A DNA stretch of 64,000 nt, taken from assembly GCF_020923435.1 (NCBI RefSeq), contig NZ_CP087263.1, positions 1,197,970-1,261,969 on the forward strand, in the 5' to 3' direction. Origin of the DNA: Brevibacillus humidisoli. Its GTDB lineage: Bacteria > Bacillota > Bacilli > Brevibacillales > Brevibacillaceae. Every line of letters begins with the position of its first letter. The stretch's first letter is position 1. Below, piece after piece: positions 2,026 through 26,707 of this stretch. The position numbers were made by a program, and so were the translations under genes. The notes below the pieces were generated by a model. That model saw nothing but the letters and a program-made list of their open reading frames with translations. It was not told the origin of the DNA and ran no database searches.

Positions 2026-3824
2026 ATGGATATGACAACCTGCTACATGATTGACCCTGCTGCATGGGGGATTTATACGGATGGGACCCATGCAAAAGCG
2101 ACCACTGACGGACTGAATGCGGCAATCCAATACGCCAAGTCGGAGGGCTACAGCGAAGTTTTTACTCCCAAAGGAAAATACCTGATCGACGCTGTTTCCA
2201 AAACGTCTTCAAAGCCTGAAAACGGAGGGGGAGTGAAGGTCCCTTCCAACATGAAGCTTCTGATGAGTCCGGAAACGGAATTGAAGGTCGAACCCAATGC
2301 GGCGCTCGGCTATTCCTGCATCTACCTGGACGATGTGGAAAATGTGATGATTCGAGGTGGCATGCTGACGGGTGAACGATACGAACATGATTACAGCGAT
2401 CAGACGAGACCGACTCATGAGTGGGGCTCGGGATTAATGTCCACGGTGGACGGAATATCACAACCTACAACGTCAGCATCAGAGATTTTACCGGAGATTG
2501 CATTTTTGTGAATGCGCAAGGGATGATCGGTGTTGGCACCAAACCGTATACCCCGCCGAAAAAAGTAACCATCCAAAGATGCACGTTGGATGGAGCGAGA
2601 CGGAACAACATTTCGATTAATGCTTGCGACGGGGTGGTCATTGAGAACAACGTGATTCGCAACGCGGGTGTTGATACCACCATCGGTCCCGGATTCGGCA
2701 TTGACATTGAAGGGTACGGAGAGGGCGACATTGACTTCGAAGTGCCGGTAAATGTCGTGATCAAAAACAACACGTTTCGCGGGAATCGAGAACATTCGAT
2801 GTCCAATTACAATGGATACGGCGTCGTGATCGAAGGCAACTTCTCTGATCACACGATTTCCTACGGATTCGGAACCGATACGGTAATCGCCAACAACGTG
2901 ATTATTTGCACTGACGCAAAGGTTGAAGCGATCAGGTGTGAAGGGGTATCCAATGGATTGGTGGGAAATAACGTGACGATCACCGGAAATGTGGTCAAAG
3001 GCTTCGTTAAAGGCATACAAGCATCGGGTAAAGATGTTGTCGTGGCGGGCAATACCATATCCGATGGAAGATTGGGGATTCAAGCCTATCTAGCGGAGAA
3101 CGTCCTGGTCTCCGGCAATGCCGTCCATCATTGCGAAGTTAGCGCCTATAGGATCGGACATTCCAAAAATGTGAGTTTGGTGAACAACAAAGCGTTTGCT
3201 GTCAACGGGTACGCCATCGAAGTGTTCCAATCCCCTGTGAAACCCAGCGATCCCGATGAAGAACCTGCGATTACCTGCAATCTGGTCGCCTCCAACTTGA
3301 TTAGCAAGTGCAGAGGAGGGATCAAGGTTGAGGATTCGGATGTATCGGTAATGGGGAACCTGATCGACTTGAGAGAATACGAGGGTCCATTGGCGTCCTT
3401 ATACGACATCTCCTTTGACAAAAACAGCAATGTGGCGATCAAAGGAAACCGAATCGTGGGAGCGAAAAAATTCGCTATCTACGGGGAAGGCCGCAGTGGA
3501 AAAAGAGTGCTGATTTCCGACAACGACATAGCGGAAACCAAGTCAATTACCGCAGTCTTGATCAAAGAGGGAGTGCGGCCGCAGGTGATCGGCAATAACA
3601 TATCTTTTGACAGGAACAGCGACGGAGGAATTGGCATCTATTTACAGGCAACGTCAAACGCTGTTGTAGCCAGAAATTCCGTTTATTCCAATTCCGGGTT
3701 TTCGCTCACCAATGCCATTCGCACCAACGAATCGAACCATTCAAAAGTGTTGCAGAATGTGGCGGTTGGCGGTGGCTTATTACTTAGTCAGGGTGATACG
3801 ACGATGGGGAATACGGTCGTCTAA
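2026..3824 (+). pseudogene. right-handed beta-helix tail-spike / pectate-lyase-superfamily protein, frameshifted
   Basis: ATG 2026 follows GGAGGAG at six bases. The N-terminal part (PAAWGIYTDGTHAKATTDGLN) is the usual head of the Pectate_lyase_3-type beta-helix fold. The rest carries many short parallel beta-helix repeats of the kind VVIENNVIRNAG and NVLVSGNAVHHC. The frame breaks at the G run 2423-2426. Upstream reads ...THEWG in frame 1, and GLGINVHGG continues in frame 3. One extra G restores a single protein of about 599 aa. Such proteins serve as phage tail spikes or polysaccharide-degrading adhesins, and it sits right behind the tape-measure-like gene. Either a real single-base deletion or a sequencing error; a programmed shift is unlikely because no slippery site is present. 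Confidence 0.75.
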
Positions 3825-5131: not shown

Positions 5132-5388
5132 TTACCTTCCCGCCCTCTCAGAATATATTTACGAGTATTATATGTGACAGCTTTTGAGGATGAATAGACT
5201 GATAACAGAAGTAGATGCGCCCTGAATGGCAAGTGTATGTTCAAGGATGATAGAGCGATGCTATTCTAAGGGGACCACAGGTGTGGGGCAATAGCAGAAA
5301 AATGTGGGATTACAAACGGAGCGCGTTCGATACCTATGACTTATATGTGTAATATAAAGTAACATAAATTCGTTTTTTTTATTTTGTG

Positions 5389-5416
5389 TTGACAATTTAT
5401 TTAATTGTGTTAGAAT
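5389..5416 (+). promoter_or_regulatory. strong sigma-A-type promoter
   Basis: TTGACA at 5389-5394, a 16-base spacer and TAGAAT at 5411-5416. It predicts initiation around 5423, only about 55 bases ahead of an intrinsic terminator. Confidence 0.7.
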
Positions 5417-5422
5417 AATTGA

Positions 5423-5477
5423 CATGGGAATTCCCTCCATCTCCTTAACTTGGACCCTGAAAAGGGTCATTTTTTTT
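5423..5477 (+). ncRNA. candidate small RNA of about 55 nt with C-rich anti-SD motifs
   Basis: A good promoter and a strong terminator bracket about 55 bases with no convincing reading frame. The predicted transcript carries a small self-complementary GGGAATTCCC. It then has two unpaired pyrimidine patches, CCCTCC and CTCCTT, complementary to Shine-Dalgarno sequences. It ends with the terminator stem GACCCT-GAAA-AGGGTC and eight Ts. C-rich loops opposite SD sequences are a known feature of Gram-positive trans-acting sRNAs; assignment here is inference. The alternative is an attenuated leader for something downstream. Confidence 0.45.
5453..5477 (+). terminator. intrinsic terminator of the candidate sRNA
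   Basis: A 6-bp perfect stem 5453-5458/5463-5468 with a GAAA loop, followed by A and eight Ts (5470-5477). Confidence 0.8.
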
Positions 5478-5543: not shown

Positions 5544-5564
5544 TATAATGGGAACATAAGTTCT
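5544..5564 (+). promoter_or_regulatory. LexA-like operator overlapping a -10 element
   Basis: TATAAT at 5544-5549 is followed at once by GAAC-ATAA-GTTC (5552-5563), a perfect fit to the GAAC-N4-GTTC core of the Bacillus LexA/DinR box. The -35 region is weak. The next gene is a YolD homologue, a family that in B. subtilis belongs to SOS-linked uvrX/yqjW-type operons, which supports SOS control. Confidence 0.55.
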
Positions 5565-16604: not shown

Positions 16605-16627
16605 CGAATTACCTCCTAGCCATCATA

Positions 16628-16717
16628 CGGTAACCCGGCTGTCATAGTTCTAAAAAGAACCGTAGACCCGCAGTTTTGCGCCACCATCTTTCAATGGGTT
16701 TGCCTTTTTCGTGTGGG
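16628..16717 (-). ncRNA. cyclic-di-GMP-I (GEMM-I) riboswitch
   Basis: Reading the minus strand from 16717, the conserved core appears in order: CACGAAAAAGGCAAACC, a CCATT-GAAA-GATGG hairpin with the GNRA tetraloop, GGCGCAAAACTGCGGGTCTA, a variable stem (GGTTCTTTTTAGAACTATG) and the closing CAGCCGGGTTACC. These are the GEMM-I consensus blocks, including the tetraloop and the GGGTCTA ligand-side junction. It lies in the leader of the 110-aa gene at 16504, between its promoter and a terminator-like hairpin. Confidence 0.93.
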
Positions 16718-22921: not shown

Positions 22922-22951
22922 GGGTTGCCCTCCTTTTTGATGGAGATAGGT

Positions 22952-22981
22952 AAAAAAAAACCTCACTGCCAAGCAGCGAGG
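22952..22981 (-). terminator. perfect terminator 31 bases upstream of the 47-aa gene
   Basis: On the minus strand CCTCGCTGC-TTG-GCAGTGAGG (9 bp, one G-T pair) followed by nine Ts. There is no gene for it to end, so it is either an attenuator of the 47-aa gene or the end of a small RNA. Confidence 0.7.
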
Positions 22982-23210
22982 CAGCGTCTCATCCAGTTCC
23001 CGCAGGAACGCGATCGAACGCTCCTATCAGACGTTCAAGATCTTGGAGAGAACACTATTTCAATTATGGGAGAGGAGAAACCGGAGGAAGAGCTTATGGG
23101 GAAACGTAAGTCTTCTCCGCGGTTGTCAGCGACACCGTTGCGTCGCTAGTCCTATTCTTTGCCAGATCTGTTTTCCTTTATACATCTGTGGGTACATTTT
23201 TTTCTCTTGT

Positions 23211-25885: not shown

Positions 25886-26707
25886 GTGGAAGCCAAGCAA
25901 AGACCAAAAGTAGGTCTCGCCCTCGGTGCCGGTGGGGCGCGGGGTCTGGCCCATATTGGTGTGTTGAAAGCATTTGAGGATCGTCACGTACCCGTTGACT
26001 TTGTGGCGGGCAGCAGTATGGGCAGTTTTATCGGAGCCTTGTATGCCAATGGCATTCAGCCGCATATGATGGAAAAACTTGCTCTTCATTTGAAACGGAA
26101 GCACTGGTTGGATATTACCGTCCCCAATCTTGGTTTTGTGGCTGGGGAAAAAGTGAAGCAATTGATCCAACTGTTGACCCATGGCAAAAAAATCGAAGAA
26201 CTGAAGATTCCCCTGGCAGTCGTTGCCACAGATATCGAGACCGGGGAGCGGGTGGTATTTCGTGAGGGGCCGATCGACCAGGCTGTGCGAGCCAGCATAT
26301 CCATTCCCGGCATTTTCGTTCCGGAGCGGGTGGGGGATCGGTTGCTGGTAGATGGCGGTGTCATTGATCGTGTGCCGATAACCGTGGCGAGGGAGATGGG
26401 AGCGGATATTGTGATCGCTGTTGACGTTGCCCAGTTTGACGTCAAGATAGAGGTCAATTCGATTTTTGATGTGATTGCCCAGACAATCGATGTGATGGAA
26501 CGGGAAATCCTGCGGCACAGAATGCTGTCCGCTGATATGGTAATACGGCCAAATGTGGGACACTATAGCAGTATCGCCTATTCCGGTGTTGCTGAAATCA
26601 TCGCAGAGGGAGAACGTATGGCTCTCGAACATGTAGAACAAATCAAGCAGCTGATGGACAGATGGAGGGAGTCCCATGAAGGAGAGAGCGGCAGCGATGA
26701 GAACTAA
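25886..26707 (+). CDS. ylbK: patatin-like phospholipase / NTE-family esterase
   Basis: 273 aa; GTG 25886 follows AGGGGGGATGAACT. Patatin Ser-Asp dyad: oxyanion glycine loop LALGAGGARGLAHIG, nucleophile elbow GSSMGS (GxSxG) and DGGVIDRVPI (Asp). Predicted cytoplasmic lipid acyl hydrolase of the RssA/YlbK group. It overlaps ylbL by 32 bases, so translation is coupled. Confidence 0.93.
   Translation: MEAKQRPKVGLALGAGGARGLAHIGVLKAFEDRHVPVDFVAGSSMGSFIGALYANGIQPHMMEKLALHLKRKHWLDITVPNLGFVAGEKVKQLIQLLTHGKKIEELKIPLAVVATDIETGERVVFREGPIDQAVRASISIPGIFVPERVGDRLLVDGGVIDRVPITVAREMGADIVIAVDVAQFDVKIEVNSIFDVIAQTIDVMEREILRHRMLSADMVIRPNVGHYSSIAYSGVAEIIAEGERMALEHVEQIKQLMDRWRESHEGESGSDEN

Follow-up and report, generated by a model that had tools for sequence, protein, structure and literature searches.

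The window, the 64,000-nt stretch of the Brevibacillus humidisoli genome analysed here, carries a compact block on its forward strand at 5389-5477 in which a promoter and an intrinsic terminator enclose a predicted small RNA (sRNA) of about 55 nt. The promoter scan found the -35 hexamer TTGACA (5389-5394) and the -10 hexamer TAGAAT (5411-5416, with TG in front) separated by a 16-nt spacer, an 11/12 match to consensus; the RNA, whose start point was placed from the -10 hexamer to within 2 nt, would extend from 5423 to 5477. Its CU-rich anti-Shine-Dalgarno arm, CCCTCCATCTCCTT (5433-5446), is followed by a terminator (5453-5477, terminator scan and covariation) with a 6-bp stem and 4-nt loop (GACCCT-GAAA-AGGGTC, 5453-5468) and a T8 tail (5470-5477). 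The initial annotation had described a near-consensus promoter and a terminator around these bases, with two exposed anti-Shine-Dalgarno patches, and this anatomy was borne out: both patches, CCCTCC (5433-5438) and CTCCTT (5441-5446), lie outside the terminator, the first being partly engaged in a weak 3-bp stem that joins GGG at 5426-5428 to its first three C residues in the minimum free energy (MFE) fold. The fold of the window RNA is unremarkable (z = -0.72), and across the window promoters of such quality are not above chance (4 found, 4.7 expected) and terminators are at about chance level (4 found, 2.8 expected); the block is therefore judged to be above chance because of its conservation and not because of promoter and terminator scores alone.

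A glycosyltransferase gene lies on the opposite strand, 257 nt from the -35 hexamer, and yolD, a YolD-family gene (PF08863; 5678-6028, +), lies 200 nt downstream of the sRNA. In front of yolD a TATAAT (5544-5549) abuts GAACATAAGTTC (5552-5563), which we take to be a LexA-type box, and yolD probably belongs to the SOS response and is independent of the sRNA. Upstream, a frameshift may have split a single gene into the ORFs 2011-2511 and 2421-3824, which overlap in different frames; the latter encodes a right-handed beta-helix protein. With Rfam 15, the gathering score was reached in the window only by a c-di-GMP-I riboswitch (16626-16714, -) and a ylbH leader (22951-23122, +), both away from the sRNA. 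A search of nine loci with E values up to 1 returned no Rfam match at the family copies; the best match of a distant copy, Hrs13, a name tied to an Erwinia paper, was rejected as an identity at 35.2 of 52 bits, the score being driven by the terminator.

BLASTN found one strong copy in the same genome and one, at 79%, in the sister species, and a covariance model built from four copies (R1, which includes spurious promoter pairs) found the block in 24 of 39 Brevibacillaceae genomes, giving 28 copies after alignment. R1 recovers 27 of these at E ≤ 6e-4, its four training copies included, and the remaining one, G001c, at E = 0.27; a second model, R2, was trained on the 28 copies, whose R2 scores are thus high by construction. 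R1 matches kept out of the alignment were a copy in G009 with a decayed promoter, a set of shorter matches, of which the two inspected (L063 and L064) are ammonium-transporter promoters, and weak matches in G011, G030 and G032. B. humidisoli has three copies, two of them siblings at C1:425648-425744 and 953855-953946 (L058, L059), and the sister species likewise has three (two additional copies, L060 and L061). A scan of named genomes with an exact pattern returned nine records, eight labelled Brevibacillus (formosus, SYP-B805, thermoruber, gelatini, uncultured, centrosporus, invocatus and parabrevis) and one labelled Anoxybacillus sediminis. By R1 and R2 searches a clear copy is absent from 15 of the 39 family genomes, namely G002 in the same genus, seven of g2 (G009 with its decayed copy among them) and the sampled members of g3 (five), g4 (one) and g7 (one).

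All 28 aligned copies have their own promoter and an intrinsic terminator around a non-coding stretch, the -35 element reading TTGAC in 24, TAGAC in three and TTGAG in one. The window and sister-species copies share a syntenic neighbourhood: the sRNA precedes, by about 6 kb in the window and about 0.3 kb in the sister species, a block that corresponds with gaps to 11.3-64 kb of the window. Conservation of promoter, seed and terminator as one unit, which had been put forward as a check on the locus, thus holds in 24 of 39 family genomes. The letters of the seed fared differently, since CCCTCC and CTCCTT are retained exactly only in the sister-species orthologue (L002), and other arms read, for example, UCUCUCCACUUCC, UUUCUCUCCACUCC or UUACCCUUCAUCUUCC.

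Segment identity was compared in 14 of the 19 g2 copies, those with an identical arm layout, and was 0.986 over the first 30 nt of the RNA and 0.921 over the operator at its start (box A, below), against 0.437 in the spacer between the -35 and -10 hexamers and 0.584 in the 30 nt before the -35. In the terminator, 92.3% of cells are paired and 10 cells are changed on both sides, values reached by 0 of 500 shuffles each, and three pairs are changed on both sides, a number matched by 33 of 500; because the 28 copies are mutually related, such shuffle controls overstate independence, the paired count is lowered by at least four alignment rows (G000b, G000c, G001c and G037) that are out of register here, and pairing is expected of any terminator. 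Downstream genes differ among copies, the nearest ORF within 100 nt being convergent in 13 of 28 (from crude ORF calls, some of which may be spurious). A conserved RNA, a pairing terminator and varied downstream genes together form the pattern of a free-standing RNA, and we consider the block very probably a real and conserved sRNA gene family.

In low-GC Gram-positive bacteria, nitrogen regulation depends mainly on GlnR and TnrA. Two operators of their type, missed by the initial annotation together with the sibling copies, accompany the promoter. Box A, TGTTAGAATAATTGACA (5408-5424), spans the -10 hexamer and the predicted start point and is perfect and identically placed in 27 of 28 copies, with one mismatch in the other; box B, TGTAATATAAAGTAACA (5348-5364, outside the interval first described), is a perfect TGTNA-N7-TNACA, the GlnR/TnrA consensus (PMC3412718, PMC6191146), of which TGTNANAWWWTNTNACA is a closely similar published form (PMC4475385). 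Within -60 to -10 of TTGAC, all 28 copies have a box B with at most one mismatch (1.30 expected from dinucleotide shuffles), 20 of them perfect (0.07 expected) and eight with one mismatch. It lies 51-65 bp from box A, centre to centre, with 22 copies at 63-65 bp and four at 54 bp, two main spacings that differ by one helical turn; the exceptions are the window copy (60 bp) and G037 (51 bp).

Elsewhere in the B. humidisoli genome, perfect boxes precede an ammonium-transporter gene (PF00909) and an MFS transporter gene read as nitrate type, and a box with one mismatch precedes glnR. The MerR-type protein encoded before glnA, that is GlnR, ends in RGELSRFFH, which fits the XG(E/D)XSRF motif reported to bind glutamine synthetase (PMC9249791). 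GlnR is the likelier ligand of the boxes than TnrA because one Brevibacillus brevis genome is listed as having no TnrA (PMC3412718). On these grounds, control of the sRNAs by GlnR is likely, and, with box A placed where transcription would begin, occlusion is the suggested mode of repression. With ample glutamine, feedback-inhibited glutamine synthetase would stabilise GlnR, which would then occupy box A, cover the -10 and start point and block RNA polymerase; box B would assist, either in cooperative repression or in activation under nitrogen limitation as at the nif promoter of Paenibacillus polymyxa. When nitrogen is short, the RNA would be made and would end at its intrinsic terminator.

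The arm reads as the complement of a translation start region, from Shine-Dalgarno sequence to AUG. In the window RNA the mean unpaired probability of nucleotides 5-30 is 0.77, and in the 13 validly folded RNAs among the other 27 it ranges from 0.42 to 0.98 (the fold of G017, whose RNA end had been set at an inner T run, was not used); the least open arms are those of G035 (0.42) and the genome's own sibling b (0.63), whose MFE fold pairs arm with terminator. A C/U-rich arm largely unpaired in most folded copies agrees with the earlier reading of the RNA as a typical C-rich sRNA of Gram-positive bacteria. By such an arm the RNA would pair with Shine-Dalgarno and start regions of target mRNAs and stop their translation, and antisense action of this kind is moderately probable.

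Target prediction with the C-rich patches, also suggested at the outset, yielded no conserved target among the candidates, and the start regions that match the arm best in one of the two seed-sharing species are not kept in the other. Matches to the complement of a 15-nt seed, compared with a backward control in three genomes of the genus, numbered 17 versus 11 in B. humidisoli, 11 versus 15 in G001 and 5 versus 5 in G002, which amounts to no clear excess overall and to none in two of the three. They include the sRNA itself, a LysR gene (PF00126; gltC-like by eye) and start regions read by eye as those of galU, an FAD-synthetase-like gene and an iron alcohol dehydrogenase, which we treat as leads only. 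A pattern of arm core plus ATG has matches in all 39 genomes, those in which no sRNA was found included, and G004, a genome with no clear copy, likewise has complementary start regions. Two candidates were rejected. The start region of an AMP-binding enzyme gene (PF00501, read as lcfA) has strong complementarity to the window sRNA in 14 family genomes examined, but the site has drifted in B. humidisoli itself (duplex -26.2 kcal/mol versus -39.8 for L014) and in the two other members of the genus. A PDZ/Lon-type protease gene at 26676 (ylbL-like by eye) has the best duplex of the 71 window ORFs of at least 150 aa (start region 26646-26697; -35.9 versus -24.0 kcal/mol for the next), but in the sister species the duplex weakens to -20.1, or to -28.8 over a wider region; the complementary stretch falls where the preceding gene ends or close to it, and 26697 may be the better start by eye.

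An arm-pattern search of 398 genomes of the class Bacilli gave 34 matches in 33 genomes, whereas the backward control matched two genomes. Of the matches, 17 are sRNAs of the family, four are copies in other families and 13 have, by eye, no promoter-terminator anatomy. The four other-family copies, from f12 (G217) and f30 (G105, G228 and G236), share an identical ACATAGTATGGTTTCTCTCCACTCC followed by TATCCAT, which nearly equals the arm of sibling b, GGTTTCTCTCCACTCCTATCC; each has promoter-like -35 and -10 elements in front and a terminator-like hairpin behind, and each follows an aroA-like gene (PF00275 tested in L161, the rest by eye). A perfect GlnR box was not found near any of the four, and G217 has a box with one mismatch over its -35. 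R2 has three class matches outside the family, the arm-bearing copies of G217 and G228 and a locus (L099/G128) rejected as a copy because it is by eye a promoter before a transporter operon. This distribution suggests an old arm that came under GlnR control in the Brevibacillus family; convergence, or loss of the boxes elsewhere, is an alternative. We raise as a tentative possibility, somewhat short of an even chance, that an old, unreported sRNA family of the Bacilli with the arm ACAU..UUCUCUCCACUYC was captured by GlnR in Brevibacillus-type bacteria by way of a promoter with two phased operators, expanded to three siblings in one genus, and would serve these bacteria as a post-transcriptional arm of their nitrogen response.

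Taken as a whole, we judge it moderately probable that 5389-5477 is a nitrogen-switched sRNA gene, repressed by GlnR in nitrogen excess, whose arm silences target mRNAs under limitation. An unlikely alternative is that the RNA is nitrogen-controlled but acts by another route, binding a protein, sponging an RNA or acting on a convergent neighbour; the lack of a conserved mRNA target among those searched and a tail-to-tail arrangement with a small convergent gene in several g2 copies would fit this, although by eye that gene is not seen at the window copy, the sibling loci or the other families, and a mostly unstructured CU-rich arm suits pairing with G-rich RNA. It is quite improbable that the locus serves solely as a regulatory binding site or decoy for GlnR, its short transcript being functionless: the boxes are indeed its most regular feature and the predicted RNA begins within box A, yet the conservation continues past box A through the 5' arm over 30 nt at more than twice the spacer identity, the terminator is preserved, and an almost identical arm occurs in two other families with no perfect GlnR box.

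The initial annotation had also considered that the block might be conserved only as the leader of a downstream coding gene, with the promoter serving that gene (here yolD, on the same strand) and the hairpin acting as a regulated terminator. This is very improbable, since the block is kept with no conserved downstream gene, a YolD-like gene in G008 (PF08863, 26.1 bits against a cut-off of 27.5) lies upstream of the RNA and not downstream, and yolD in the window has its own TATAAT beside the LexA-type box. Scarcely credible, finally, is a small peptide gene or toxin-antitoxin pair, whether a leaderless ORF or a minus-strand peptide whose Shine-Dalgarno sequence is covered by the RNA. An ATG is present at 5424, but its frame has no stop ahead of the terminator and reads through it, and neither of the two c siblings has an ATG in its arm; on the minus strand, AAGGAGATGGAGGGAATTCCCATG opens a frame of 54 aa opposite the arm, with a similar frame of 26 aa in the sister species, but these frames share letters imposed by the promoter and box B, shrink to at most 6 aa in three g2 copies examined, and in the 54-aa case match no Pfam family, in keeping with the original statement that no gene is enclosed.

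The nitrogen-switched sRNA proposed here would belong to a new family of a known kind. Bacillus subtilis RoxS, FsrA and CsfG likewise use C-rich regions against mRNA targets (PMC8216469), and C-rich sRNAs typically pair with ribosome binding sites (PMC10433868); the Brevibacillus RNAs differ in having one short CU-rich arm plus the terminator hairpin, and FsrA is regulated by Fur (PMC8216469) whereas these have GlnR/TnrA-type boxes. Other sRNAs tied to nitrogen supply, NsiR4 and NsrR1 of cyanobacteria, sRNA154 of Methanosarcina and the glnA 3'UTR sRNA of Enterobacteriaceae, are likewise described as tuning metabolism post-transcriptionally, but they belong to other phyla and other regulators, and the Brevibacillus sRNAs are set apart by having as many as three siblings per genome and a GlnR-type promoter with two operators. 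Two GlnR boxes are also present at the P. polymyxa nif promoter, an upstream site (I) that activates under limitation and a downstream site that represses in excess (PMC6191146); a distance of 118 bp separates them, and site II is located 24 bp past the start (PMC6191146), whereas the boxes here are closer, one lies on the -10 and start, and the product is an sRNA. The anti41 RNA of Lactococcus lactis is similarly a GlnR-linked small RNA of a Gram-positive bacterium, but it lowers glnR expression (PMC8753986), the reverse of our proposal, in which GlnR controls the RNA. Listeria LhrC offers a parallel in that a single genome carries several sibling sRNAs sharing a regulator (PMC4132741), although there the regulator is LisRK and the context envelope stress (PMC4132741).

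A literature search limited to titles and abstract openings gave no description of an sRNA under GlnR or TnrA control, a paper on TnrA binding sites (PMC4475385) has no mention of sRNA, small RNA or ncRNA, and in a review of nitrogen sRNAs GlnR, Paenibacillus and Firmicutes are unmentioned and Bacillus appears only for engineered silencing and in a reference. If the proposal is correct, nitrogen limitation in Brevibacillus activates genes via GlnR and silences others via small RNAs, and the hypothesis lends itself to direct testing in a laboratory strain, given the siblings, the nearly invariant arm and the pair of operators.

Some related promoters deserve separate mention. The two ammonium-transporter promoters matched by R1 (L063 and L064, in G007 and G026) have two perfect GlnR-type boxes 30 bp apart and are near enough to the sRNA promoter for the model to match them. 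In another family, a promoter with a GlnR-type box in the same layout (L165 in G128, near 2019) precedes an operon read as a urea- or amino-acid-type ABC transporter. Lastly, several g2 copies and the f30 copies (L009, L161-L163 and others) carry an element resembling CAGAAAATT(C/T)G-AA some 7-21 bp in front of the -35, a possible UP element or CodY-like site.
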